From an uncultured Pelagibacteraceae bacterium (GTDB taxonomy: Bacteria > Pseudomonadota > Alphaproteobacteria > Pelagibacterales > Pelagibacteraceae), in NCBI GenBank assembly GCA_902532525.1, contig CACAIK010000001.1, forward strand, positions 124,001-188,000: DNA of 64,000 nt, given 5' to 3'. The number at the start of each line of letters is the position of its first letter. Position 1 is the stretch's first letter. Below, piece by piece: positions 4,105 through 58,854 of this stretch. The notes under the pieces are model-generated. The model did not search any database, was not told the origin of the DNA, and saw only the letters and a list, made by a program, of their open reading frames with translations. The position numbers and the translations under genes are program-made.

Positions 4105-4815
4105 ATGTCAGAAAAATATTTAGTAGTAGGTGCGACAGGATCTATCGGATCTAATTTAGCCGAACAGTTATACGCAGCCGGCAAAGAAGTACATTTAATT
4201 GGTAGGGATGAAGAGAGAACAAAATCTTTGTCTGAAAAACTAAATTGTAAATATACAGTCTCTGATGTTTTAGAAAATGGTTTTGTTGAAAAGATTAAGT
4301 CCGAAATAGATGATATCAAAGGTATAGCTTATTGTGTTGGTTCAATTGATTTAAAACCTTTGAGAATGGTTTCAGAACAAGATTTTACAAAATGTATGAA
4401 ACTAAATTTATATTCTGCAGTAGATTTAATTAAAGGTTATCAAGAAAGCTTAAAAAAAAATAAAGGATCGATTGTTTTGTTTTCAACTGTTGCTGCTCAA
4501 AGGGGTTTTACAAATCATGCAATTATAGCTTCAACCAAAGCAGCTGTTGAAGGATTAACTGTTTCTTTAGCAGCAGAATTTGCTCCTAATATAAGAGTAA
4601 ACTGCATTGCTCCAAGTTTAACTAATTCAAAAATTGCAGAGCCAATGCTTAAAAATAAAGTTTTAGCTGATGGTATAGCAAAAGCCCATCCATTAAAAAG
4701 ACTTGGAGAAGGTAAAGACTCAGCTTCGCTTGCAAAATTTCTAATAACTGAAGACAGTTCTTGGGTTACAGGACAAATTATTGCTGTCGATGGTGGTAGA
4801 TCAAAACTTTCATAG
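4105..4815 (+). CDS. SDR-family oxidoreductase-like protein lacking the catalytic tyrosine
   Basis: A 236-residue Rossmann-fold protein of the short-chain dehydrogenase/reductase family. The nucleotide-binding GATGSIG (9-15) is near the N-terminus and a typical C-terminal WVTGQIIAVDGG is present. The active-site serine is kept (FST, S127) and so is the lysine (K145), but the YxxxK tyrosine position is isoleucine (I141 in HAIIASTK). The NNAG motif has become YCVG. Ordinary SDR chemistry therefore looks impaired, so a binding, regulatory or altered catalytic role is possible. The start ATG lies 27 bases from the divergent photolyase-family gene, and the next gene begins at once, suggesting an operon with the sugar dehydrogenase. 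Confidence 0.85.
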   Translation: MSEKYLVVGATGSIGSNLAEQLYAAGKEVHLIGRDEERTKSLSEKLNCKYTVSDVLENGFVEKIKSEIDDIKGIAYCVGSIDLKPLRMVSEQDFTKCMKLNLYSAVDLIKGYQESLKKNKGSIVLFSTVAAQRGFTNHAIIASTKAAVEGLTVSLAAEFAPNIRVNCIAPSLTNSKIAEPMLKNKVLADGIAKAHPLKRLGEGKDSASLAKFLITEDSSWVTGQIIAVDGGRSKLS

Positions 4816-6881: not shown

Positions 6882-7490
6882 TTAATAATTTTTTGAAATA
6901 ATATCTTGAATTGTATTACTTATAACTATTGTTCCAGCTTTGTTAGGATGTATGCCATCTTGTTGATTTAGATTTGGATCAAGAGCAACACCCTCTAGCA
7001 AAAATGGAATTAAAGGTAAATTATATTTTTTTGACAATTTAGGATAAATAGCATCAAAATTTTTTTTATATTTAGTTCCATGAGTTGTTGGCGCAACCAT
7101 CCCAGCTATTATAATTTTTATTTTTTTACTGTTAGCGATTTTAATTATTTCTTCTAAATTTCTCTCGGTTTCATCTGGTTGAATTCCTCTAAGCATATCA
7201 TTTGCCCCAAGACCAAGGATGATTAGATCAATACCGGGTTCTGATAAGCTCCATTCTGCTCTATTCAATCCACCAGAAGAAGTACTTCCTGACACACTTC
7301 CATTTATTACCTTAATATTTAAACCACTCCTAACGAGATTACTTTCTAAAACCAAAGATAAGTGTTGCTCTTTAGGTAGACCATAACCCGCCATTAAACT
7401 ATCGCCGAATAATATAACCTTTTCTATTGCACTTGCATTTATGTGCACTAGAAAGAATAACAATATTTTTATAAATAAACTTTTATTCAT
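6882..7490 (-). CDS. tesA: GDSL/SGNH arylesterase-lysophospholipase (TesA family)
   Basis: A ~202-residue SGNH hydrolase of the TesA family (acyl-CoA thioesterase / lysophospholipase L1), expected in the periplasm. The chosen ATG gives a signal peptide (MNKSLFIKILLFFLVHINASA). An ATG 63 bases further upstream adds an unlikely extension inside the divergent ABC gene. Block I is FGDSLMAGYGL, block III is GLGANDML and block V is DGIHPN with the catalytic Asp and His. The start codon shares bases with the start codon of the divergent ABC ATPase gene. A divergent tesA-ybbA pair is also known from E. coli, which supports both names. Confidence 0.88.
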   Translation of the reverse strand: MNKSLFIKILLFFLVHINASAIEKVILFGDSLMAGYGLPKEQHLSLVLESNLVRSGLNIKVINGSVSGSTSSGGLNRAEWSLSEPGIDLIILGLGANDMLRGIQPDETERNLEEIIKIANSKKIKIIIAGMVAPTTHGTKYKKNFDAIYPKLSKKYNLPLIPFLLEGVALDPNLNQQDGIHPNKAGTIVISNTIQDIISKNY

Positions 7491-8154
7491 GAACACACTT
7501 CTTAAATTAAAAAAAATAAATCTCAAATACCAAACTGGGAAGGACAATATCAATGTTTTAAAAAATATTGATTTAACTATAAAAAAAAAAGAAACTGTAT
7601 CTGTGGTTGGAGAAAGTGGGTCAGGAAAAACAAGCTTGATTATGCTTATTGGTGGACTAGAACGTCCAACCTCAGGGAAAATTATATTTCAAGACAGGGA
7701 AATAACAAATCTTAATGAAGACGAAGTATCTGAAATTAGAAAGCAAAATATAGGAATTATATTTCAATCTTTCTATTTAATTCCAAATTATACAGCTGTT
7801 GAAAATGTAGCTTTAACACTTGAACTTAATGAATTTAAAAATCCAGAGAAAGAAGCAAAAAGTTTATTAGATCGATTTGGTCTAAAACATAGATTCAATA
7901 ATCTTCCAAGTCAATTATCTGGCGGAGAGCAACAACGTGTGGCGATTGCAAGAGCTATTGCAATGAAACCAGATTTGATTTTAGCTGATGAACCAACTGG
8001 TAATCTAGATACCGAAAACTCAATAATGATCTCTGAAATTTTATTTAAATACGTCAAAGAAGAAGGGTCTTCTTTAATAATGGTCACACATGATCCAAAA
8101 TTAGCAGACAAAGCAAAACGAAAAATTAAAATCAAAGATGGAAAAATTAAATAA
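7489..8154 (+). CDS. ybbA: ABC transporter ATP-binding protein (YbbA/LolD-like)
   Basis: A ~221-residue ABC ATPase of the LolD/MacB-like class that powers FtsX-type permeases. Walker A is GESGSGKT, the signature is LSGGEQQR and Walker B is LILADEPTG, with the switch histidine in MVTHD. The chosen ATG (MNTLLKLKKINLKY) is the family-typical start; an in-frame ATG 48 bases upstream lies inside the divergent esterase gene. The start shares two bases with the tesA start on the other strand. The stop overlaps the permease gene by 17 bases, so translation is probably coupled. The substrate is unknown; YbbAP partners are thought to move lipophilic molecules from the inner membrane. Confidence 0.9.
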   Translation: MNTLLKLKKINLKYQTGKDNINVLKNIDLTIKKKETVSVVGESGSGKTSLIMLIGGLERPTSGKIIFQDREITNLNEDEVSEIRKQNIGIIFQSFYLIPNYTAVENVALTLELNEFKNPEKEAKSLLDRFGLKHRFNNLPSQLSGGEQQRVAIARAIAMKPDLILADEPTGNLDTENSIMISEILFKYVKEEGSSLIMVTHDPKLADKAKRKIKIKDGKIK

Positions 8155-36003: not shown

Positions 36004-36276
36004 TTATTTTTTTCTTCTGTCTAGTTCTTCCATTACTTCTTCAATTTTTATACCACTTTTTTCAAGGTACATAATGAGGTGATATAAAACATCTGCAGCT
36101 TCATGGATTTTATTTGAGTCTTGCTCTACAGCTTCTATGAGTTCATTAATTTCTTCTAGGACTTTTTCTTTCGCTAAAGTTTTATCCTCTAAAAGCTTAT
36201 TAGTGTACGAGCCTTCAACAGAGTTACTTTTTCGCTCTCTTGCAAGGATTACGAGATCTTCTAATATCTTTAACAT
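36004..36276 (-). CDS. hisE: Phosphoribosyl-ATP pyrophosphatase
   Basis: A ~90-residue HisE, hydrolysing PR-ATP in histidine synthesis. The chosen ATG (MLKILEDLVILARERK) lies one base after the hisF stop; an ATG 51 bases upstream inside hisF adds a non-conserved leader. Motifs SYTNKLLEDKTLAKEKVLEEINELIEAV and HEAADVLYHLIMYLEKSGI carry the MazG-like metal-binding acidic residues. It ends the hisB-H-A-F-E run. The hisI function is not encoded with it. Confidence 0.93.
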   Translation of the reverse strand: MLKILEDLVILARERKSNSVEGSYTNKLLEDKTLAKEKVLEEINELIEAVEQDSNKIHEAADVLYHLIMYLEKSGIKIEEVMEELDRRKK

Positions 36277-36277
36277 A

Positions 36278-37030
36278 CTAAATCCTAACAGGTATATCTT
36301 TCGAAGCCAAATATTGCTTAGCTTCATTTACTGAATAAGTTCCATAATGGAATATAGATGCTGCTAAAACAGCACTAGCACCTGATTTTATTCCATCAAC
36401 TAAGTGATCTAAAGTTCCAACCCCACCTGATGCAATAACTGGAATATTTACCATAGAAGATATCTTTTGCATCAATTCAATATCATATCCTGACTGAGTT
36501 CCATCTTTATCCATGGATGTTACAAGAAGCTCCCCCGCGCCACATTTTTCCATTTTAGATGCAAATTCTAAAGCATTTATGCCTGTTGGATTTCTTCCCC
36601 CATGAGTAAAGATTTCCCATCCATCGTCTTTTCTCTTTGCATCAATTGCAACAACAATGCACTGTGATCCAAATTTTCTAGAACTATCTTCAACAACTTT
36701 TGCATTTTGTACAGCTGCTGTATTGATTGATACTTTATCAGCCCCACAATTAAGTAATTTATTAATGTCATCAATACTTCTAACACCTCCACCTACAGTT
36801 AGTGGTACGAAACATTCTTTAGAAGTTTTCTCTACCACTTCATAAATGGTATCTCTATTTTCATTTGAAGCAGTAATATCTAGAAAACAAATCTCATCAG
36901 CTCCTCCATCGCTATAAATTTTTGCTTGTTCAACAGGATCTCCTGCATCTTTAAGATCAACAAAGTTTATACCTTTTACAACACGACCATTTTTGACATC
37001 TAAACAGGGTATAATTCTATTTTTAAGCAT
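36278..37030 (-). CDS. hisF: Imidazole glycerol phosphate synthase, cyclase subunit
   Basis: A 250-residue TIM-barrel cyclase that uses ammonia from HisH to make imidazole glycerol phosphate and AICAR. Key parts are [18 protein letters not shown] (catalytic Asp), [46 protein letters not shown] and [17 protein letters not shown] from here feeds purH, also in the window. It overlaps hisA by 8 bases. Confidence 0.97.
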
Positions 37031-45715: not shown

Positions 45716-46296
45716 TTATAATTACCTAGATATTTTTTAATATCAATTATAGGTAATCCCATAATAGTATTTTCATCTCCATCAATAGATATAAATAAAT
45801 TTCTACCCTCTCCTTCTATTTGATAAACATTATATGCATACAGAGCTTCGTCTGTTATTTTTTCTAAATATTCTTTTATTTCTTTGTCTGAAAAATTTTT
45901 CATTGTGAGGTACGCTTTATCTGTATAATTCCAAGTCATTGATCCGTTTTTAGATATACAAACTGAGCTTATCAATGAATGTTTTTTTCCATTTAATTTT
46001 TTTAAAATGTTAAACGCTTCTATCCTATTTTCAGGTTTTGAGATTAATTCTCCGTTTAAATCTATTACACTATCCGCACCAAGGACTAAAACATCATAAT
46101 TTTTTTGGCTAACCTTATTTGCTTTTAGTTCGGCCAGATTTTTTGAAATTATTTCTGGAGATGCGCCTTCATTTAACAAACTTTCTTTTACAGGATCCTC
46201 ATCAATATTCGAAGGAAATACTTCACATTGAATTCCATTTTTAATTAAAATTTCTTTTCTAACCTTACTTTTTGAAGCTAAAATAATTTTAACCAT
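45712..46296 (-). CDS. maf: Maf-family nucleoside triphosphate pyrophosphatase
   Basis: A ~194-residue Maf protein, probably removing non-canonical or excess nucleotides. The chosen start gives MVKIILASKSKVRKEIL, the family opening; an ATG 18 bases upstream is possible but extends beyond the homologous start. VLGADSVIDLNGELISKPEN, the helix RIEAFNILKKLNGKKHSLISS and IEGEGRNLFISIDGDENTIMGLP complete the pattern. It overlaps the end of ppsR by 8 bases and aroE by 4. Confidence 0.93.
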   Translation of the reverse strand: MVKIILASKSKVRKEILIKNGIQCEVFPSNIDEDPVKESLLNEGASPEIISKNLAELKANKVSQKNYDVLVLGADSVIDLNGELISKPENRIEAFNILKKLNGKKHSLISSVCISKNGSMTWNYTDKAYLTMKNFSDKEIKEYLEKITDEALYAYNVYQIEGEGRNLFISIDGDENTIMGLPIIDIKKYLGNYK

Positions 46297-47110
46297 TTTT
46301 ATTTTGTATTTCAAATATTTTAATTATTGATGCTGCAGTTTCTTCAACAGATTTTCTAGTTACGTCTATTGTTGGCCATCTATTTTTTTTAAATATTTTC
46401 TTAGATTGTTCCACTTCAAGTCTAATTTTTTCTAGATTTATGTAATCTGATGTTTCATTTTCTTTCAGTGAATTTAATCTATTTCTTCTTATGTCATAAA
46501 GTCTTTCGGCTTCTGTAGTTAATCCGATAACACATATTGTTTTTGATTTCATAATATCATTTGGAATGCTCATATCATTTACAAGTGGAATATTTGAAGT
46601 TTTTAATCCTTTATTTGCAAGATATATGGAAGTCGGTGTCTTGCTCGTTCTGCTAACACCAACTAAGATGATATCTGATTCTAAAATATTTTCGGTATTA
46701 TTACCATCGTCATGATTCATGGTAAATTGTATTGCTTCAATTCTTTTATAATAATCTTCGTCTAAAACGTGTTGACCACTGGGCTGGTGTGTTGCTTTTT
46801 CGTTCAAAATTTTTGAGAAGTTGAGTATTAAGTCGCCGAGAACGCCAAAACATGGAATGTTTTTCTTATTAGCTTCTTCTGCAAGAAACTTTGCTAATTT
46901 ACTATTAACAACAGTATATAAAATTATTGGACTCTCTTGTTTTTTAGCATCATTTAGTATCGTAGAAATTTGATTTTCGGTTCTTGTAAATGAAAATTGA
47001 TTCAGATCATAATTAAAGTTGTTAAATTGTGCTTTAAGAGCCATGAATATTCTATCAAGTGTCTCTCCCGTTGAGTCTGATATTAAATAAACTTGGTGTG
47101 TATTCATCAT
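46289..47110 (-). CDS. ppsR: Pyruvate, water dikinase regulatory protein (bifunctional kinase/pyrophosphorylase)
   Basis: A 273-residue DUF299/PSRP-type regulator that phosphorylates and dephosphorylates PEP synthase or pyruvate phosphate dikinase on threonine. VYLISDSTGETLDRIF opens the protein and the P-loop is DIILVGVSRTSKTPTSIYLANKG. No target gene lies in the window. Its start (two ATGs in a row) borders the likely replication origin, divergent from hemE; the ppsR-hemE pair flanking the origin is a classical alphaproteobacterial layout. Confidence 0.93.
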   Translation of the reverse strand: MMNTHQVYLISDSTGETLDRIFMALKAQFNNFNYDLNQFSFTRTENQISTILNDAKKQESPIILYTVVNSKLAKFLAEEANKKNIPCFGVLGDLILNFSKILNEKATHQPSGQHVLDEDYYKRIEAIQFTMNHDDGNNTENILESDIILVGVSRTSKTPTSIYLANKGLKTSNIPLVNDMSIPNDIMKSKTICVIGLTTEAERLYDIRRNRLNSLKENETSDYINLEKIRLEVEQSKKIFKKNRWPTIDVTRKSVEETAASIIKIFEIQNKNG

Positions 47111-47391
47111 GTATAAATTGTTTATAAATTAACTATAGAATAAGAAAAACTTTTGATTTAGCAACCACATCTAACTTTAGTATAATTCTTATTGTTTAAT
47201 TAACATTTTTATAAATATGAATAAGTTATTAACAATTTTCATATATATAAAAGTGATTAAATAATCCCCGTTTTAAAGGTTTTTTTTTTTATGATAATGA
47301 ATAAAAAGTGGATAAAGTGTTGAAATTGAGTAATTTACGTTATCAACAATTCATACTAATAATAAATCTAAATATAATTATCTTATTATAA
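47111..47391. other. Probable chromosomal replication origin (oriC) between ppsR and hemE
   Basis: The longest gene-free stretch of the window (281 bases), very AT-rich. DnaA-box-like sequences: TTATCCACT at 47307-47315 (read on the minus strand, 8/9 match to TTATCCACA), TTATCAACA at 47340-47348 (8/9) and TTATTAACA at 47226-47234 (7/9). AT-rich tracts such as CATATATATAAAAG near 47240 and a run of ten or more T's near 47281 could serve as an unwinding element. Genes read away from it on both sides. In Caulobacter and related alphaproteobacteria the origin lies next to hemE, with rho, mnmE, mnmG, rsmG and parAB nearby, exactly as here. A second use as promoter region of hemE (TATAAT at 47373-47378) and ppsR is certain to overlap. 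Confidence 0.65.
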
Positions 47392-48393
47392 ATGACACCA
47401 ATAAAAGAATGTTTAATAAATAATAAAACAGATCTCATTCCTATTTGGCTAATGAGACAAGCAGGTAGATACTTACCTGAATTTAGAGAAATAAGAAAAA
47501 ATAACCCAAATTTTATAAATCTTTGTTTAAACTCAAAATTATCAAAAGAAATAACTCTTCAACCAATAAAAAGGTTTGGTTTTGATGCTGCAATTATCTT
47601 CTCTGACATTTTAATGATACCCTATGGACTTAGTCAAAAAGTTGAGTTCAAGAAAAACTTTGGTCCTAATCTTGAAGATGTGGAGATGGATAAATTACTA
47701 GAAATTGATGAGGCAAAATTTACAAAAAATTTATCTCCAATATATCAACTTTTAGCTGATTTAAAAAAAAACGAGGATTTAAAAAAAAAAGATGTAATTG
47801 GTTTTGTAGGAGCTCCATGGACTTTGCTTGTATATATGATAAATAAGGTCTCTCCAAAAAATGGTTTAATAAACAATTTTTTCTCAGACATAGATTTAAT
47901 TAATAATTTGTTAAAAATTTTAGATAAATTTATTAAAATCCATATAAAAAACCAAGTAAACGCTGGCGCCACTTTAATCCAAATATTTGATAGCTGGTCT
48001 GGTCTGATTGAATCAGATTTTGAAAAATATTTATACAATCCAACTTTATCTTTAGTTAACTATACTAAAAGCTTAGGTGTACCAGTAATTTGTTTTCCAA
48101 GAGGAATAACAGACTATAGCCAATTTTGTAAAATTGTGAAACCAAGCATGATTAATATAGATTATGACGTTGATCCAAAAAATTTACTTAAAAATGTAGA
48201 TATACCCATACAAGGTGGATTGCACCCTGAGGTACTATTAACAAATAAAGACCACTTAAAAAAAGAAGTAAATAAATATTTGGAAATATTTAGAGATCAT
48301 CCTTACGTGTTTAATCTTGGACATGGTATTCTTCCGGAAACAAAAATTGAGATGGTAGAAGAATTAGTAAAAATAGTTAGAGACTTCAAATGA
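47392..48393 (+). CDS. hemE: Uroporphyrinogen decarboxylase
   Basis: A 333-residue HemE, converting uroporphyrinogen III to coproporphyrinogen III. IPIWLMRQAGRYLPEFRE is the signature near the start, with FSDILMIPYGL, GFVGAPWTLLVYM and FNLGHGILPET. It is the first gene right of the probable origin and overlaps hemH by 4 bases (ATGA). Length is a little short but normal for alphaproteobacteria. Confidence 0.97.
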   Translation: MTPIKECLINNKTDLIPIWLMRQAGRYLPEFREIRKNNPNFINLCLNSKLSKEITLQPIKRFGFDAAIIFSDILMIPYGLSQKVEFKKNFGPNLEDVEMDKLLEIDEAKFTKNLSPIYQLLADLKKNEDLKKKDVIGFVGAPWTLLVYMINKVSPKNGLINNFFSDIDLINNLLKILDKFIKIHIKNQVNAGATLIQIFDSWSGLIESDFEKYLYNPTLSLVNYTKSLGVPVICFPRGITDYSQFCKIVKPSMINIDYDVDPKNLLKNVDIPIQGGLHPEVLLTNKDHLKKEVNKYLEIFRDHPYVFNLGHGILPETKIEMVEELVKIVRDFK

Positions 48394-49880: not shown

Positions 49881-51152
49881 ATGAATATTCAAGAATTAAA
49901 AGAAAAAAGCTCAGAAAAGCTCATTACGGAAGCTGAAAATTTAGGAATTGAAAATGCGAGTACTCTAAGAAGACAAGAAATCTATTTTGCTATATTAAAA
50001 AAATTAGCAGAAAAAGGTGAAGAGATTACTGGCGGTGGAGTACTTCAATTACTTCAAGATGGATTTGGTTTCTTAAGAGCAATAGAGTCAAATTATCTTC
50101 CAGGTGCTGATGATATTTATGTGAGTCCTAATCAAATAAGAAGATTTGGTCTACGAACGGGTGATACTGTTGAAGGACCAATCAGGGCACCTAAAGAAGG
50201 CGAGAGATATTTTGCTTTACTACAAGTGAGTAAAATTAATTTTGAAGAGACTGATAAATTCAAACATAAAATTGCTTTTGATAATTTAACTCCTTTATAT
50301 CCAAATAAACAGTTAGTAATGGAAGTTGAAGCAACTAAGATTGAAAAAAAAATTGATTTAACTCCGAGATTAATTGATTTGGTTAGCCCAATTGGGAAAG
50401 GACAAAGATCACTAATTATTTCGCCTCCAAAAGCTGGTAAAACTATGATCTTACAAAGTATTGCAAATTCAATTACAGCAAATCATCCAGAATGTTACTT
50501 AATGGTGCTTTTAATTGATGAAAGACCAGAAGAGGTAACAGATATGCAAAGGACTGTAAAAGGAGAAGTTATTAGTTCTACATTTGATGAGCCAGCACAA
50601 AGACACGTTGCAGTAGCTGAAATGGTTATAGAAAAAGCAAAAAGATTAACCGAACATAAGAAAGATGTTGTTATACTTTTGGATTCAATAACAAGACTTG
50701 GTCGAGCATACAATGCTGTGGTCCCCAGTTCAGGAAAAGTTTTAACTGGCGGTGTTGATGCTAATGCGTTGCAGAGACCAAAAAGATTTTTTGGGGCTGC
50801 AAGAAATATTGAGGAAGGTGGGTCACTAACTATTATTGCTACAGCGCTAATTGATACTGGTAGCAGAATGGATGAAGTTATTTTTGAAGAATTCAAAGGT
50901 ACTGGTAACAGTGAAACAATTCTTGACAGAAAAATTTCGGAAAAAAGAATATTTCCTGCTATTGATATAACAAAATCTGGTACTAGAAGAGAGGAATTAA
51001 TTTTTGAGAAAAATGATCTTCAAAAAATGAATGTTTTAAGGAGAATCATTGCCCCAATGGGATCAATGGATGCTATAGAATTTATTAATTCAAAGTTAAA
51101 AGATACTAAAAATAATTCTGATTTTTTTAATTCAATGAATAAGCCATCTTAG
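49881..51152 (+). CDS. rho: Transcription termination factor Rho
   Basis: A 423-residue Rho helicase. The N-terminal domain ([15 protein letters not shown]), the RNA-binding cold-shock-like fold ([43 protein letters not shown]), Walker A PPKAGKT, Walker [10 protein letters not shown] and the Q-loop [14 protein letters not shown] are standard. With very few hairpin terminators visible in the window, Rho-dependent ends are likely important. The next gene on this strand in relatives, mnmE, is displaced by an inserted minus-strand gene. Confidence 0.98.
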
Positions 51153-51153
51153 T

Positions 51154-53085
51154 CTAACTTTTAAAAAAACTTTCGTAAATTTTTTCTAAGTTTGCAGTAT
51201 ATTTTTTAGAATCAAATAACTTTAAAACTTTTTCTTTTTCCAATTTTTTGTTAATTTCTTTAAACCTTCTATTATCATTACGCAATTCAATTGCAGTTTT
51301 TACATAATCATCTAGGTTTTTTGTTATTAATTGATTTAAACCAATTGAATTTAATATACTTCCAGCAACCCTTGAAGCAAAAGATTCACCAATTAATGTA
51401 AGAGTTGGAACTTTTCTTCTTATTGCCTCGATTACAGTGGTATGACCATTGTAAGGAAAGGTATCTAAAAAAAGATCCATTATTTCAAATCTTTTTAAAT
51501 GTTCATCGTAAATAAGTTTGTCCGCAAAAATAATTCTTTCAGTATCTACATCAAACTTTCTACATTCTTTTTTTAAGTTTTTTGATGCAATTTCATTATT
51601 ATTTAGCAACCATAAAACACTATTATTAGTTTTTTTTAATATATTCATCCATGCTTCAAAAATTATTGGTGTGATTTTATAGCTATTGTTAAAACTTCCA
51701 AATACGAAACTCTCATCAGGAATTCCCAAGTTTTTTTTACTAAATTTTTTTTTAGAAATTTGAATATTTGTTGGATTTGGAAAGAAACTGTCTGGTAATC
51801 TTAAAATTTTCTCAGTGTAAAATTTCTCAAAATTATTTGGGATAAGAAAGTCGTCACCTATTATATAATTCATAAATGTGGTTCCCATTGTTCCTGAATA
51901 CCCAAGATAGCTTATTTGTACTGGTGCAACTTTTTTTAAATATATCTCATTTCTTGAATCTGAGGTGTATCCGGTCAAATTTATAGCTATATTTAAACCA
52001 ATTTTATGAGCAAGACTTACAATTTCACCATCTGATTTTTTTGTTACATCATAAAATTTAGTAAAATATTTTTGGACTTCATAGTGTAATTTATCTTTAA
52101 CAGGTCCATGAAAAAAACCATAAATTTCAAACTTAGAATGATCATGGTTTTTAAATATATCTTTAGTTAATTGTAAAACTGGATGATTATAAAATTCTGC
52201 TCCAAAATAACCAATTTTAATTTTATTAAGCTTCTTTAAATTTTCACTATTATAATTTTTATCTTTTTGAAATGCCACATTGCTGTAAAGAATAGAATTT
52301 TTTTTTTGTAGAGACATGTCATCGATTAATGAGAGTAAAGGAAATGGCTCTATAATTTTCTCATCATTCTCAATAGAATTTTTTAATAATTTTAAATTTG
52401 ATTTAAAATTATCCCAATCACAAATATGCATTTTTGAATGAAAGTACTTACCAAATAAATATGGAAATTTAGGGTTTGCATTTAATGCATTATGAAATTC
52501 TCCTATAGCCTCAACAAATTTTTTCTTCGATAGAAATATTTCAGCTTTATTATTATAGGCTTCAGCGTTATCTTTATTCAATTTTATGGACTTATCGTAA
52601 GATTTAATTGCTTCATCAGATCTACCCACATCTCTAAGAAGATTACCAATATTATTATAAATTTTATAATTATTAGGAGATAATTTAAGAGAATAATTAA
52701 AATATTTTATGGCCTCATTAAAATTAAGCAATTTTCTATAAGCAATTCCAATATTAATGTTTGCATCAAGAAAATTTGGATTTAGTTTTAGAGCTTTTTT
52801 ATAATTTGTTATTGCACTTTCACTATTATTCAATTGACTTAAAGCAATACCGATATTGTTATAGTAACTTTCTGTGTCTTTTTTTAATGTAATAGCTTTC
52901 GATAGGTAGAAAACACATTTTTTATAATCTTTTATTTGTAAAAAAGCAGTTCCAATTAAAAAATAAACTTGTGCTTCATTTTTAAAGTCATTAATTATTT
53001 TTAAATATTCCTTTATTGCTTGGTCTATCTTACCTATTTTGTGTAATTTTTTTGCTTCTTCTAATATGTTAAATTTATTTTTCAT
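51154..53085 (-). CDS. TPR-repeat GT41-type glycosyltransferase (OGT/SPINDLY-like)
   Basis: A 643-residue protein. About six TPR repeats occupy residues 1-220 (patterns like YYNNIGIALSQLNNSESAITNYKKALKLNP). The C-terminal GT41 catalytic region (about 295-640) has KIGYFGAEFYNHPVLQLT, APVQISYLGYSGTMGTTFMNYIIGD, LGIPDESFVFGSFNNSYKITP, IMDLFLDTFPYNGHTTVIEAI and ESFASRVAGSIL. Family members transfer GlcNAc or another sugar to proteins. There is no signal peptide, so it acts in the cytoplasm. It interrupts the rho-mnmE neighbourhood against the direction of the flanking genes, an insertion. Target and donor are unknown. Confidence 0.9.
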   Translation of the reverse strand: MKNKFNILEEAKKLHKIGKIDQAIKEYLKIINDFKNEAQVYFLIGTAFLQIKDYKKCVFYLSKAITLKKDTESYYNNIGIALSQLNNSESAITNYKKALKLNPNFLDANINIGIAYRKLLNFNEAIKYFNYSLKLSPNNYKIYNNIGNLLRDVGRSDEAIKSYDKSIKLNKDNAEAYNNKAEIFLSKKKFVEAIGEFHNALNANPKFPYLFGKYFHSKMHICDWDNFKSNLKLLKNSIENDEKIIEPFPLLSLIDDMSLQKKNSILYSNVAFQKDKNYNSENLKKLNKIKIGYFGAEFYNHPVLQLTKDIFKNHDHSKFEIYGFFHGPVKDKLHYEVQKYFTKFYDVTKKSDGEIVSLAHKIGLNIAINLTGYTSDSRNEIYLKKVAPVQISYLGYSGTMGTTFMNYIIGDDFLIPNNFEKFYTEKILRLPDSFFPNPTNIQISKKKFSKKNLGIPDESFVFGSFNNSYKITPIIFEAWMNILKKTNNSVLWLLNNNEIASKNLKKECRKFDVDTERIIFADKLIYDEHLKRFEIMDLFLDTFPYNGHTTVIEAIRRKVPTLTLIGESFASRVAGSILNSIGLNQLITKNLDDYVKTAIELRNDNRRFKEINKKLEKEKVLKLFDSKKYTANLEKIYESFFKS

Positions 53086-53233: not shown

Positions 53234-54565
53234 ATGACAATATATGCTCTATCTTCTGGACCTGGAATAGCCGGTGTCTCTGTTATCAGAGTTTCTGGTA
53301 GAGAGACACAAAAAGTAATAAAGGAGCTGACCCAAAGAGATTTACCTAATCCTAGAGAGGCTACTAGAAGAAATTTCAATAAAATCAGCAATAATGAGCT
53401 TATTGATGAGGGAATTTTAATATGGTTTCCTGCTCCAAATAGCTACACTGGTGAAGATATGGCTGAATTCCATGTACATGGTAGCAAAGCGGTTGTTAAA
53501 GAAATGCATACAACTATTTCAGAGATAGATGGTTGCCGGTTGGCTGAGCCTGGTGAATTTACTAAAATAGCTTTTCAAAATGGTAAAATAAATTTACTAA
53601 AAGCAGAGAGTATATCTGACTTAATTTCATCAGAAACAGAAATCCAAAGACAACAGGCTATTAAAATTATGTCTGGTAAAAGTTCTGACAAATTTAATTC
53701 TTTAAGAGATAGAATTTTAAAAATTTTATCTAATATAGAAGCTAAAATAGATTTCCCTGAAGACGACCTACCAGATGATATTTTAAAAAATATTCACTTA
53801 GAGACCAGAGGTATAAAAACAGAAATAGAAAAAATATTAAACGATCAGAAAGTAGGAGAAAGAATTAGAGAGGGTTTTAAAATAGCAATTATAGGTCCTA
53901 CTAATGCTGGTAAATCTTCACTACTAAATTATCTATCTAAAAGAGATGTAGCAATAGTTTCAGAAGTAGCTGGAACAACCCGGGATGTAATAGAAGCACA
54001 CTTAAATATAGATGGATACCCTGTGGTAATATCTGATACAGCTGGAATTAGAAATTCAGAAGATGAAATCGAAAAAAAAGGTATCAATTTAGCTTTGAAA
54101 AAGGCTGAAAACTCTGATTTAAACTTAATTGTGATAGAGCCAAAAAATGTTGATTTTTCAAGCTTTTTTAAAGATATTACATCAAAAAACTCAATATTAG
54201 TCGTAAATAAAATGGAGCAAGGAGTCGATAATCTTAGTCAAGAAATAAAAAAACATAATCCTGTTTTTATATCAATTAAGGAAGAAAAAAATTTAGATAA
54301 ATTAATAAACATGATTAAAAATAAATTAAAAAATAATTTTATTTCCAATGAAGATATTTTTATAACTAGGCAAAGACACAGAAAAAGTCTTGAGTTATGT
54401 TTAGATAGTTTAATAAATTTCGAGGCGAAAAAATCTTTAGATGATATTGATAAAGCAGCTGAAGATTTAAGGCTAGCTACCAGACACCTGGGTTTTATTG
54501 TTGGAAAAGTTGATGTGGAAGAAATACTTGGATCAATATTTAGTGATTTTTGTATAGGTAAATAA
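53234..54565 (+). CDS. mnmE: tRNA-modification GTPase MnmE (TrmE)
   Basis: A 443-residue MnmE, working with MnmG in modifying U34 of tRNAs. The N-terminal formyl-THF-binding domain (IYALSSGPGIAGVSVIRVSG, PNSYTGEDMAEFHVHG), the G domain with GPTNAGKSSLLN, the DTAG motif and NKM, and the C-terminal catalytic FCIGK are complete. A perfect TATAAT at 53221-53226 ends seven bases before the ATG and no ribosome-binding site is visible, suggesting a leaderless mRNA. Confidence 0.97.
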   Translation: MTIYALSSGPGIAGVSVIRVSGRETQKVIKELTQRDLPNPREATRRNFNKISNNELIDEGILIWFPAPNSYTGEDMAEFHVHGSKAVVKEMHTTISEIDGCRLAEPGEFTKIAFQNGKINLLKAESISDLISSETEIQRQQAIKIMSGKSSDKFNSLRDRILKILSNIEAKIDFPEDDLPDDILKNIHLETRGIKTEIEKILNDQKVGERIREGFKIAIIGPTNAGKSSLLNYLSKRDVAIVSEVAGTTRDVIEAHLNIDGYPVVISDTAGIRNSEDEIEKKGINLALKKAENSDLNLIVIEPKNVDFSSFFKDITSKNSILVVNKMEQGVDNLSQEIKKHNPVFISIKEEKNLDKLINMIKNKLKNNFISNEDIFITRQRHRKSLELCLDSLINFEAKKSLDDIDKAAEDLRLATRHLGFIVGKVDVEEILGSIFSDFCIGK

Positions 54566-54641: not shown

Positions 54642-56513
54642 ATGAAAAATGAGTTAACATTTGATGTAGTTGTTATTGGAGGGGGTCATGCAGGTTGTGA
54701 GGCAGCGACAGCATCTGCCAGACTAGGAGTTAACACCGCCCTTTTTACACATAAATTTGATACTATTGGAGAGATGTCATGTAACCCAGCAATCGGGGGA
54801 TTGGGTAAAGGACATTTAGTTAGAGAGATTGATGCACTAGATGGTGTCATGGGTGAAGTAGCAGATAAGTCGGGCATTCAATTTAGATTATTAAACAAAA
54901 GTAGAGGACCGGCAGTAAGAGGACCAAGAACTCAAAGTGACAGATCGCTTTATAAAAAATTTATGCAAGAAAAACTTGTAAAGTATTGTAATTTAAGCAT
55001 ATTTTCTGATCCTGTAATAATGTTTAATTTTAGTAATAATGATATAAAGAGTTTAACAACACAATCTGGTAAAGAAATTAAATCATCAAAGATAATTTTA
55101 ACAACTGGTACTTTTTTAAATGGATTAATACATATAGGTGAAGAAAAGACACCAGCAGGAAGATTTAACGAGAAACCCTCTACAGGTTTAAGTGAACAAT
55201 TAGAAAAGTTCGATTTTAAAATTGGTAGATTAAAAACTGGTACTCCACCAAGGTTGGATGCTAGAACAATAAACTTTGAAAATTTAGAGGAGCAACATGC
55301 TGATCATGATCCCTATTTTTTTTCATTTTTAACAAAAAAAAATTTCAATAAACAAATTTCATGTCGAATGACATATACAAATGAAACTGTTCATAAAATT
55401 ATTTCAAAAAATATTAAAAAAAGCGCGATGTATTCTGGAAGTATAAAAGGAGTCGGTCCAAGATATTGTCCATCTATAGAAGATAAAATAAAAAAATTTG
55501 CAGATAAACACAGACATCAAATTTTTTTAGAACCTGAGGGTTTAAATGATCATACAATTTATCCAAATGGAATTTCAACATCTCTACCAGCGGATGTGCA
55601 GCAAGAAATATGTAATAATATCAATGGTTTAGAACAAGTAAAAATTTTGAGGCCTGGATATGCAATTGAATACGATTTTGTTGATCCAAGAGAACTTTTT
55701 TTAACGTTAGAGACAAAAAAAATAAATAATTTATACCTTGCCGGTCAAATTAATGGGACTACTGGATATGAAGAAGCTGCTGCTCAGGGATTAATCGCTG
55801 GAGCAAATGCTGCACTTTCTTTTAAAGGTCAAGAACCATTCATTTTAAACAGATCGGAAGCATATATTGGTGTTATGATAGATGATCTTGTTACCAAAGG
55901 TGTTGCCGAACCTTATAGAATGTTCACTTCAAGAGCCGAATATAGATTATCGCTGAGATCAGATAATGCAGATGTTAGATTAACTCAAAAAGGAATAGAT
56001 TTGGGATTAGTTTTAAATAAAAGAGCAAAAATATTTAAGGAAAAATACAACGCATTATCAATAATCCAATCTAAAATGGATAAATTGATGATTACACCAA
56101 CAAAAGCTAATGATTTTGGTGTAAAAATAGCAAAAGATGGAATTAGTAGATCTGCAAATCAAGTTTTAGGGCAAAAATCAGTAAATATGAGTAAAATAAG
56201 GGAAATTTGGCCTGATATTAAGTATATTTCACGTGAAATAGATGAGCAGTTAGAAATTAATTCTCATTATAAAGGTTATCTAAAGAAGCAAAAAGCAGAT
56301 ATAATTGCTTTTAAAAGAGATGAAAACTTAATAATACCTGAAAATATTAATTATGATGATTTTTCAGGTTTATCAAACGAGGTAAAGTCAAAATTTAAGA
56401 AAATTAAGCCTAAAACAATGGGGCAAGCACTAAGGATTGACGGTATAACGCCAGCTGCTGTATATATTTTGTTGTCTCACCTTAAAAGAAAGTCTATTAA
56501 GCATATAGCTTGA
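54642..56513 (+). CDS. mnmG: tRNA uridine 5-carboxymethylaminomethyl modification enzyme MnmG (GidA)
   Basis: A 623-residue FAD protein, partner of Mnm[22 protein letters not shown] (dinucleotide motif), [85 protein letters not shown] and [22 protein letters not shown] are all present, and the C-terminal helical domain that binds MnmE ends the chain. Its 3' part holds a 14/16 parS-like palindrome. It overlaps rsmG by 4 bases. Confidence 0.97.
56225..56240. promoter_or_regulatory. parS-like palindrome inside mnmG
   Basis: TATTTCACGTGAAATA is a perfect 16-base palindrome. It differs from the classical parS TGTTTCACGTGAAACA only at the symmetric second and fifteenth positions (14/16). It lies 332 bases before the perfect site in rsmG and ~1 kb before parA. 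Lower-affinity ParB binding is likely; this is inference from the match. Confidence 0.6.
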
Positions 56514-57157
56514 TCGATTCGAATATTATAAAAACAAACAAAATATTATATAAAAATGTTTCACGTGAAACATATTTGGAGTTAGAGAACTATTCAAAAG
56601 CAATAATTTCAAAAAATAAACAGATAAACTTAATAAGCAAGAGTACAGAAAAATTAATAAAACAAAGGCATATTGAAGATAGTTCACAAACTATTGATTT
56701 TATTGATAAAAATGATATTACAACATGTACTGATCTTGGTTCAGGAGCAGGTTTACCTGGAATAGTTTTGGGTATTTTGATGAAATCAAAAAAACCACTG
56801 TTTAAAGTAATTTTTTATGAAAAGAGCTACCATAAAAGCAACTTTTTGAAAGAAATGACAAAAAAATTCAATCTCAATTCAGAAATACATCAAAAAAATA
56901 TATTTGATGAAAAAAATTTAACAACTGATGTAATTATTTCACGTGCCTTTAAACCTTTACCTATAATTTTTAAAATTGCAGAAACAAATTTTAAAAATTT
57001 TAAGTATATTATTTTATTTTTAGGCAAAAGTGGAAAAATTCATTTAGATGATGCACGTAAATTTTGGAATTTTGATTATGAAAAAAAAAAAAGTCTTACA
57101 AATAAAGATTCTATGATTATTAAAATTTCTAATTTAAGAAAAAAGAAAAAAAAATAA
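56510..57157 (+). CDS. rsmG: 16S rRNA (guanine-527-N7)-methyltransferase RsmG (TTG start)
   Basis: A 215-residue SAM-dependent methyltransferase. [30 protein letters not shown] opens the conserved region, followed by [12 protein letters not shown], the SAM-binding [27 protein letters not shown] and [12 protein letters not shown]. No ATG lies before the conserved part; the TTG overlapping the mnmG stop (TTGA) is the only sensible start. The Val-Ser-Arg-Glu-Thr stretch is encoded by a perfect parS site, so the same bases serve protein and chromosome segregation. The C-terminus is extremely Lys-rich. Confidence 0.95.
56557..56572. promoter_or_regulatory. Perfect parS centromere site inside rsmG
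   Basis: TGTTTCACGTGAAACA matches the ParB-binding consensus at all 16 positions and is perfectly palindromic. It encodes part of the VSRET segment of RsmG. parAB lie immediately downstream, and the probable origin is ~9 kb upstream, within the distance usual for parS clusters. ParB bound here would nucleate the partition complex. Confidence 0.93.
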
Positions 57158-57205: not shown

Positions 57206-58006
57206 ATGAGTAAAAAAATTATTTCTGTAATAAACCAAAAAGGAGGAGTAGGAAAGACAACAACTGTCATAAATTTGGCAGCTGGTCTATCAATGAAGGG
57301 AAAAAAAGTTTTAGTAATAGACTTAGATCCCCAGGGTAATGCAACAACAGGCCTCGGCTTATCTAATACAACAAGTTCAGACAAAACAATTTACAGCGTA
57401 CTCAATGGAAATAATAAAATTTTAGAGGTTATACAACAGACCAAGTTCACAAATCTGAATTTAATCACTTCAAATGTTGATTTGTCAGGTCTTGAAGTCG
57501 AAACTGCAGGTGATAGTCGAAGAGCATTTAAATTAAAGGATGAATTAAGCTTGATTTTAAACGATTCTAGAGCATCATATGATTATATATTAATTGATTG
57601 TCCACCTTCACTGAGCTTACTAACAATAATGGCTCTAGTTGCCTCTGATGCTTTAGTAGTGCCACTTCAGACAGAATTTTTTGCTTTAGAGGGACTTACA
57701 CAACTCATGAAAACTATCGAGAGAATAAAATTTAATTTAAATCCAGATTTACAGATTAGGGGGATACTTCTTACGATGTTTGATAAAAGAAATAAACTTT
57801 CAGGACAGGTTGAATTAGAGGCTAGAAACTATTTTAAAGAAAAAGTTTACTCAACAGCTGTTCCTAGGAATGTAAGATTATCAGAAGCACCCTCGCATGG
57901 AATACCAGTTCTTATATATGATAAGATCTGTCCAGGTAGTAAAGCTTACTTTAAGTTTACAGAGGAATTTTTAGAACAAGATAAACCAGTGGAAAGTGCA
58001 GCATGA
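57206..58006 (+). CDS. parA: Chromosome-partitioning ATPase ParA (Soj)
   Basis: A 266-residue Walker-type ATPase that segregates origin regions with ParB. The deviant Walker A is INQKGGVGKTTTVINLAAGL, with VIDLDPQGNATTGLG, the Walker B-like YDYILIDCPPSLSLL and VPLQTEFFALEGLTQL. It lacks an N-terminal DNA-binding extension, as in chromosomal ParA proteins. It overlaps parB by 4 bases and follows rsmG after a 48-base A-rich gap. Confidence 0.97.
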   Translation: MSKKIISVINQKGGVGKTTTVINLAAGLSMKGKKVLVIDLDPQGNATTGLGLSNTTSSDKTIYSVLNGNNKILEVIQQTKFTNLNLITSNVDLSGLEVETAGDSRRAFKLKDELSLILNDSRASYDYILIDCPPSLSLLTIMALVASDALVVPLQTEFFALEGLTQLMKTIERIKFNLNPDLQIRGILLTMFDKRNKLSGQVELEARNYFKEKVYSTAVPRNVRLSEAPSHGIPVLIYDKICPGSKAYFKFTEEFLEQDKPVESAA

Positions 58007-58854
58007 TAAATCCATTTAAAAACAAGAAAGGTCTAGGAAGGGGACTATCATCCTTGATTGGTGATAGCGGAATTAAAACTTCAAATGATAAAATCTCAAT
58101 TAGTTCAATTGTACCAAATAAGAATCAGCCAAGAAAGATTTTTGAAAAAGAAGCTTTAAAAGAATTGTCATTCTCAATTAAAGAAAGAGGAATAATTCAG
58201 CCTTTAATTGTAAGAAAATCTGAAGACCATAATGATATGTTTGAATTAATTGCTGGAGAAAGAAGGTTGCAAGCTGCACAGTCCGCCGGTCTTCATGAAG
58301 TGCCGGTTGTAATTATTGAGGCTGACAATCTTAAATCTTTAGAACTAGCCATTATAGAGAATGTTCAAAGAAAGGATCTGAATTCTATTGAAGAAGCCGA
58401 AAGTTATAAAAATTTGATTGAAAACTTTGGATATGACCAAGAAAAAGTCGCTCAGTTTATAGGCAAGAGTAGATCGCACATTTCGAATTCATTACGCTTG
58501 TTATCATTACCTGAAAAGATTATTGAAATGGTAAGGTTAAACACAATTTCACAAGGTCATGCCAAAATTCTGGTTGGTTTAGAGAACGCTATACTTTTGG
58601 CTGAAAAAATAGTCAAAAAAAAACTCTCTGTTAGACAAACAGAAAATCTTGTTAAGTATGTAAAAAATGCTAGTAAAAATATTGTTAAATCAAAAGATAC
58701 AAATACTATTGAAACAGAAAATCAACTAACTGAAAAAATTGGTATGAGAGTATATTTAAATAATAAAAAAAATAATTCAGGAACTCTTGTATTTGAATAC
58801 AAAGGTTTAGATCAATTAGATAGGCTTATTAATATTATAAAAAAAAATTATTAA
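58003..58854 (+). CDS. parB: Chromosome-partitioning protein ParB (Spo0J)
   Basis: A 283-residue ParB, which binds parS and spreads as a CTP-dependent clamp. KGLGRGLSSLIGD is the N-terminal ParA-contact region. The CTPase pocket follows with PNKNQPRKIFEKEALKELSFSIKERGIIQPLIV and LIAGERRLQAAQSAGL (GERR box), then IENVQRKDLNSIEEAESY, the helix-turn-helix (QEKVAQFIGKSRSHISNSLRLL) and a C-terminal dimerisation domain. The target sites are visible upstream in rsmG and mnmG. It converges with holA (4-base overlap). Confidence 0.97.
   Translation: MINPFKNKKGLGRGLSSLIGDSGIKTSNDKISISSIVPNKNQPRKIFEKEALKELSFSIKERGIIQPLIVRKSEDHNDMFELIAGERRLQAAQSAGLHEVPVVIIEADNLKSLELAIIENVQRKDLNSIEEAESYKNLIENFGYDQEKVAQFIGKSRSHISNSLRLLSLPEKIIEMVRLNTISQGHAKILVGLENAILLAEKIVKKKLSVRQTENLVKYVKNASKNIVKSKDTNTIETENQLTEKIGMRVYLNNKKNNSGTLVFEYKGLDQLDRLINIIKKNY

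Follow-up and report, generated by a model that had tools for sequence, protein, structure and literature searches.

The chromosomal replication origin of a SAR11 bacterium very probably lies in a short, AT-rich gap between ppsR and hemE

The 281 bp intergenic gap at positions 47111–47391 of the window (the whole stretch of 64,000 nucleotides analysed here, from an uncultured Pelagibacteraceae bacterium) is, we are confident, the chromosomal origin of replication (oriC) of this SAR11 bacterium, and it is very probably an origin of the kind expected in alphaproteobacteria, here short and AT-rich. A preliminary description of the DNA had proposed oriC at this place, and the proposal is supported by the position and length of the gap, the positions of its DnaA boxes, the neighbouring parS and parAB, the orientation of genes and an element made of a box followed by DnaA-trios. 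The gap is flanked by ppsR on the left (minus strand) and hemE on the right (plus strand), and so lies between hemE and ppsR/COG1806 as do other alphaproteobacterial origins; those of Caulobacter and Rickettsia, the latter a predicted one, are placed between hemE and COG1806 in the excerpts of PMC1914354 used here. The assembled genome from which the window comes comprises 1,183,021 bp in 38 contigs and is 86% complete, and the gap is found at 171.1–171.4 kb of a 188,850 bp contig. A literature search by titles and the beginnings of abstracts, with DoriC and the supplements of PMC8287927 outside its scope, found no treatment of SAR11 oriC anatomy, and in the portion of PMC7858055 consulted SAR11 is mentioned in passing only. 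The origin may already be present in DoriC or in the supplements of PMC8287927, a study that examined 2070 species.

The AT content of the gap is 82.6%, compared with a window mean of 71.0%, an above-average value as expected of an origin; 281 bp windows (step 10) that are equally AT-rich make up 0.31% and occur at four places other than the gap. Masking of ORFs left three longer apparent gaps (565, 461 and 321 bp), but these are mostly occupied by overlapping ORFs that the mask had dropped (6882–7553, 4105–4815 and 36004–36327), and 47111–47391 is therefore indeed the largest gap; the next-longest, of 214 bp, contains a tRNA. Among ORFs of at least 100 aa, 12 are on the minus and four on the plus strand between 36 kb and the gap, and nine are on the plus and five on the minus strand between the gap and 64 kb. 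The description of this gap as the largest, as AT-rich and as bordered by outward-reading genes is thus accurate.

Five 9-mers with at most one mismatch to TTATNCACA are present in the gap, compared with a mean of 0.67 in shuffled sequence (p = 0.001, 1000 dinucleotide shuffles), although the exact TTATNCACA is absent from the window's gap. The two boxes already described as matching TTATCCACA at eight of nine positions were found again, TTATCCACT at 47307–47315 (minus strand) and TTATCAACA at 47340–47348 (plus strand). One box matching at seven of nine positions had also been described; three are present, TTATTAACA at 47226–47234 (plus), TTATTCATA at 47216–47224 (minus) and TTATAAACA at 47119–47127 (minus). 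With five sites the gap has the highest box density of any 281 bp stretch of the 188,850 bp contig, on which there are 205 sites in all, and the runner-up has three. The recurring form of the box is TTATNMACA, in which A or C is allowed at position 6, a pattern picked post hoc from the alignment of related gaps. This pattern is not enriched genome-wide (212 occurrences in the assembled genome, 294 for the reversed control), and among the 100 listed of these 212 places, three occurrences within 230 bp are found only at the gap. As a locator, clusters of boxes with at most one mismatch rank the gap first in the window's contig and in the sampled stretches of two closed relatives, G020 and G127; in the sampled stretches of G128 the gap ties with two other clusters, and in G019 the top cluster is not the gap but a stretch of coding DNA at 625.6 kb, for which reason box clusters were set aside as a stand-alone locator of the origin. 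The features of the gap and its two neighbours are as follows, with the number of gaps, out of 78 from this genome and its relatives, in which each box position is occupied (at most one mismatch to TTATNMACA within 2 nt of the equivalent position).

46289–47110, minus strand: ppsR/COG1806 (PEP synthase regulator), left neighbour
47111–47391, no strand: predicted oriC, the AT-rich intergenic region separating ppsR from hemE
47119–47127, minus strand: DnaA box TTATAAACA, 77/78 gaps
47197–47205, plus strand: weak DnaA-box-like site TAATTAACA, two mismatches to TTATNCACA, 71/78 gaps
47216–47224, minus strand: DnaA box TTATTCATA, left arm of two inverted boxes separated by 1 bp, 45/78 gaps
47226–47234, plus strand: DnaA box TTATTAACA, right arm of these inverted boxes, 38/78 gaps
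47296–47304, minus strand: weak DnaA-box-like site TTATTCATT, with the next box 11 bp away, 51/78 gaps
47307–47315, minus strand: DnaA box TTATCCACT, 46/78 gaps
47340–47348, plus strand: DnaA box TTATCAACA, adjoining the proposed opening site, 68/78 gaps
47353–47364, no strand: candidate DnaA-trios, four NTA triplets ATA CTA ATA ATA (3'-NAT-5' on the other strand), 4 nt past the box
47365–47391, no strand: remaining AT-rich stretch before the hemE start, probably the unwinding region, with a promoter-like -10 element TATAAT at 47373–47378
47392–48393, plus strand: hemE, right neighbour (299 bits, just below the curated 303)

The best 80 hemE matches in the genome collection carry the titles Pelagibacteraceae, Pelagibacterales or Candidatus Pelagibacter, which identifies the window's genome as SAR11. 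The order ppsR (minus), gap, hemE (plus) is kept in 78 of 81 loci (the window's own and 77 relatives), with hemE identities of 60–100%; the three left out (L055, L062 and L078) have a ppsR that is unreadable at a contig end. The gap is 266–286 bp long in these 78 loci (median 281), and all 78 sequences differ from one another. Among 20 further stretches from the family, 19 (of which 12 belong to five other genera) have a gap of 255–284 bp, and the twentieth is too short to tell; none of these gaps is identical to any of the 78. A further locus, L230, was left out as its hemE is unreadable. Beyond the family, we compared 29 alphaproteobacterial loci, the best-matching among 81 genomes of the class with a hemE match (out of 95; the 81 include the window's own genome and one family member). 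A divergent ppsR/hemE pair is present in 17 of the 29, with a gap of 343–683 bp, and in the other 12 ppsR was not found within the stretch. Three family genomes (G010, G061 and G070) have hemE broken into two frames with stops, reflecting either decay or sequencing errors.

Conservation of the boxes in close relatives, on which the proposal had been made to depend, does not speak against it in the 78 gaps: there are on average 4.49 sites with at most one mismatch per gap compared with 0.76 in shuffled sequence, and the seven box positions listed above recur in 38–77 of the gaps, counts that are not independent because the gap sequences are related. An eighth recurring position near 47318 is occupied in 39 gaps, and the next-best place in 20. 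A perfect TTATNCACA is missing in 33 of the 78.

Within the gap, the best-conserved 34 bp window is 47331–47364 (mean top-base fraction 0.802, compared with 0.705), with the ppsR-side end, 47111–47144, a close second at 0.797. This block consists of TAATTTACG, the box TTATCAACA, the spacer ATTC and the triplets ATA CTA ATA ATA. In the four triplets the T is kept in 76, 71, 58 and 77 and the A in 78, 77, 77 and 78 of the 78 gaps, and the first base is variable, mostly A or C. The arrangement agrees with the rule published for the basal unwinding system, which asks for a DnaA box (at most two mismatches), a spacer of 0–16 nt and at least three NAN triplets (PMC8287927, as excerpted); the rule holds in the window, and at a spacer of 4 nt three or more triplets are present in 52 of the 78 gaps (at least four NTN triplets in a row in 51, three in one and fewer in 26). 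As in Bacillus subtilis and others, there is a box, a 4 nt spacer and four triplets whose middle base is fixed, on the strand where they are expected. Unlike that system, in which the triplets are mainly 3'-GAT-5', the SAR11 triplets are 3'-TAT-5' and 3'-GAT-5' and there is no second good box right beside the first; the SAR11 function is predicted from sequence. We consider it likely that 47353–47364 acts as a set of DnaA-trios.

One competing interpretation accepts the origin but takes the trio reading to be wrong, with opening at another AT-rich part of the gap and the triplets kept for transcription of hemE. We regard this as unlikely, though it has a number of observations in its favour. 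At a 4 nt spacer, 27 of the 78 gaps have fewer than four NTN triplets in a row, and a strict test for the box with a run of at least three NTA at that place succeeded in only one of 12 gaps from other genera. Other places in the gap show three-base periodicity of conservation as well, and 47353 ranks fourth of 270 in this respect. A looser box-and-trio pattern includes the hemE gap in all seven closed genomes, but its 11–27 matches per genome are not above those of the reversed control (13–22). Against this interpretation stand the published rule itself and the first rank of the block in conservation, albeit by a narrow lead. By eye, moreover, CTACTA, a GC-richer form of the triplets, appears within the 110 bp preceding hemE in eight of the 17 other alphaproteobacterial gaps. 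A strict module pattern derived from the alignment gave 79 matches in 78 of 143 family genomes (12 for the reversed control), of which 78 are directly upstream of hemE and one is elsewhere (contig 22 of G099); it is unmatched in 65 of the 143, including 27 of the 28 that belong to other genera. Since the pattern was built from the same genus, and partly from the same genomes, as three examples show, its near-uniqueness per genome is the informative part. That the trio block could be hemE coding sequence was rejected, because in the window TAA directly precedes the ATG and the triplets stand at distances from the ATG of 0, 1 and 2 modulo 3 in 26, 41 and 11 of the 78 gaps.

The genes downstream of hemE also resemble those expected near an alphaproteobacterial origin. 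The preliminary description had named rho, mnmEG, rsmG and parAB as lying near such origins, and all are present in the window.

49881–51152, plus strand: rho
53234–54565, plus strand: mnmE
54642–56513, plus strand: mnmG
56510–57157, plus strand: rsmG (91 bits; curated cut-off 99.5)
56557–56572, no strand: exact parS TGTTTCACGTGAAACA, within rsmG
57206–58006, plus strand: ParA-type ATPase (listed matches all below curated cut-offs)
58003–58854, plus strand: ParB-family partition protein

The exact parS is 9.2 kb from the gap, within the tens of kilobases expected of an origin, and its 14-base core is found at no other place of the assembled genome. Exact parS is present, one copy each, in 65 of 143 family genomes and missing in the other 78. 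In the window's genus, 54 of the 56 genomes with parS (its own included) have it 7.1–10.8 kb downstream of hemE, and in two it is on another contig. Nine genomes of other genera have parS: in G001 it is 10.8 kb downstream of hemE, in one genome it is on another contig, and G008 and G009 carry it together with a remote hemE match. The latter two, closed genomes of genus g6, have no better match to hemE than one of 30% identity, so that hemE may have been lost or replaced there and parS retained. In G005, G010, G011, G012 and G013, parS is found on the other flank of hemE, that of ppsR, at a distance of 17–19 kb, which suggests that in those genera the par cluster and the origin have shifted relative to each other. 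A second parS-like palindrome, TATTTCACGTGAAATA, with two mismatches, is located at 56225–56240 in mnmG, 332 bp before the exact parS (shuffles give 0.37 parS-like matches with at most three mismatches per window). Between rho and mnmE, on the opposite strand, is a gene for a TPR-repeat protein of 643 aa (51154–53085), which, judged by eye, is probably an O-GlcNAc-transferase-like glycosyltransferase; in G019 rho adjoins mnmE, and the best match to the TPR protein in the 80 kb searched lies elsewhere with 35% identity.

At the scale of the chromosome, we sampled four closed relatives (G019, G128, G020 and G127; about 28–33% of each, more densely near hemE). Genes (ORFs of at least 100 aa) are directed away from hemE in 64, 62, 68 and 61% of cases, respectively, and with genes closer than 60 kb excluded hemE ranks 11th of 276, 36th of 262, second of 240 and fifth of 288 test origins. 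The best origin by orientation lies 80, 150, 5 and -32 kb from hemE. Genes are therefore oriented outwards as expected, with a resolution of tens of kilobases to 150 kb, and gene orientation puts the origin in the hemE region, though not at the level of base pairs. GC skew gave no such agreement. A minimum of cumulative skew over the complete genome that fell away from the gap had been named as refuting the proposal, and within the contig this is literally the case, the minimum being at 121.5 kb, 50 kb from the gap. Skew at four-fold sites (leading/lagging) is -0.132/-0.045 in G019, -0.047/-0.185 in G128, -0.109/-0.067 in G020 and -0.055/-0.045 in G127; once corrected for gene strand, its sign is right only in G128 and wrong in G019 and G020, and the value in G127 is close to zero. 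Being noisy or inconsistent in sign in the contig, in G019 and in the four closed genomes, GC skew was rejected as a locator of the origin. The small and sign-variable four-fold-site skew, together with the statement in PMC1914354 (as excerpted) that GC skew is insufficient in several alphaproteobacteria, marks it as a poor indicator here. Excerpts of two other reports list Pelagibacter among alphaproteobacteria with atypical skew (PMC2031905) and strain HTCC1062 among chromosomes possibly divided unequally by origin and terminus (PMC2099444).

It is highly improbable, in our view, that the gap is a mere divergent promoter region for ppsR and hemE, its right-hand block being the hemE promoter and the origin lying elsewhere, for example near dnaA. 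A sigma-70-like site (10/12, TTCATA-17-TATAAT, 47350–47378) does overlap the trio block, but promoter-like sites in the gap number six compared with 4.2 ± 2.5, not clearly above chance. The dnaA gene is not beside the gap: in the window's genome it is encoded on contig 21, and in all seven closed relatives (G019, G128, G020, G127, G015, G016 and G036) it is 61–64 kb downstream of hemE; in the 200 kb around hemE in G019, the local skew minimum (636.6 kb, 32 kb from hemE) falls between the two genes. However, the 281 bp upstream of dnaA contain 0, 0 and 2 boxes with at most one mismatch in G019, G128 and G020, respectively, with no cluster, and the 281 bp stretches tested between -1000 and about +480 relative to the dnaA start in these three genomes never contain more than two. 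A promoter region would also leave unexplained the seven to eight recurring box positions, the near-constant length of the gap and the parS neighbourhood. In G128 a cluster of four boxes is present at 403.3 kb, about 3 kb beyond the end of dnaA, and across the seven closed genomes the distance from hemE to dnaA is nearly constant in spite of their differing sizes.

Taken as an origin, the gap can be compared with Cori of Caulobacter crescentus, with which it shares the hemE/COG1806 (ppsR) site, an AT-rich region and several DnaA boxes (PMC1914354, as excerpted). The SAR11 gap is the shorter (281 bp, compared with 343–683 bp in the 17 other alphaproteobacterial gaps), its boxes are degenerate, and, unlike Cori, for which PMC1914354 counts five CtrA sites and one IHF site, the window's gap contains neither the CtrA site TTAA-N7-TTAA nor the IHF consensus. 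The predicted origin of Rickettsia prowazekii is flanked by the same gene pair but exceeds 400 bp (PMC1914354). In the relatives, 26 of the 78 gaps contain 33 TTAA-N7-TTAA sites (mean 0.42, compared with 0.27 in shuffled sequence), ten of which coincide with the box pair 47296/47307. The stricter form ending in TTAAC is present in 14 gaps (0.21, compared with 0.06), and since it exceeds the shuffles, CtrA sites are possible in some relatives. Origins of the hemE/COG1806 type without CtrA sites are described for E. ruminantium and one Wolbachia strain in the excerpts of PMC1914354, and we therefore treat such sites as common but not defining. The same was assumed for the IHF site, the consensus of which, a weak test, is present in six of the 78 gaps, as in shuffles.

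No GANTC was found in the window's gap, and one of the 78 gaps has it, compared with 0.19 per gap in shuffled sequence; GANTC is also about twofold depleted across the contig (252, compared with 534 expected under a first-order Markov model), so that any depletion specific to the gap is modest. GATC is strongly depleted on the same contig (560, compared with 1953 expected under the same model), and the depletion of both motifs is alike in three stretches of G019. The genome encodes a CcrM homolog (579 bits; curated cut-off of the Caulobacter model 830 bits), in agreement with the excerpted account of PMC3973325, in which SAR11 has a CcrM homolog and Rickettsiales are without one. The assembled genome, 86% complete, contains four OmpR-type regulators matching PF00486, three full-length and one cut by a contig end, and CtrA was not recognized among them. 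From their sequences and neighbours, the three full-length proteins are presumably of the PhoB, ChvI and OmpR types. Control of this origin by CtrA or methylation looks weak or absent.

In the mechanism that we infer, DnaA would bind mostly weak boxes of the TTATNMACA type spread across 230 bp and would form a filament on the NTA triplets at 47353–47364, 4 nt from the box at 47340–47348. The filament would pull the AT-rich DNA open towards hemE, helicases would load and forks would depart both ways, and ParB bound to parS 9.2 kb away would separate the new origins. Far more tentatively, we speculate that the SAR11 oriC may be a stripped, 'always ready' origin, in which the ancestral place at hemE has been kept along with a fixed opener of box, spacer and trios, the window's lineage has lost the inputs through CtrA and GANTC/CcrM that are known from Caulobacter, and, with TTATNMACA boxes of low affinity, mainly the level of DnaA sets initiation.

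Few groups of cells in the ocean are more abundant than SAR11 bacteria, and loose control of their cell cycle has been reported under changed conditions, on which an 'always ready' origin, if true, would bear. Estimates of growth rate from read coverage depend on a correct origin, for which the gap, unlike GC skew, offers a fixed anchor. Through the conserved box-spacer-triplet element, the mechanism of opening can be tested directly in a streamlined cell with little sign of CtrA control at its origin.
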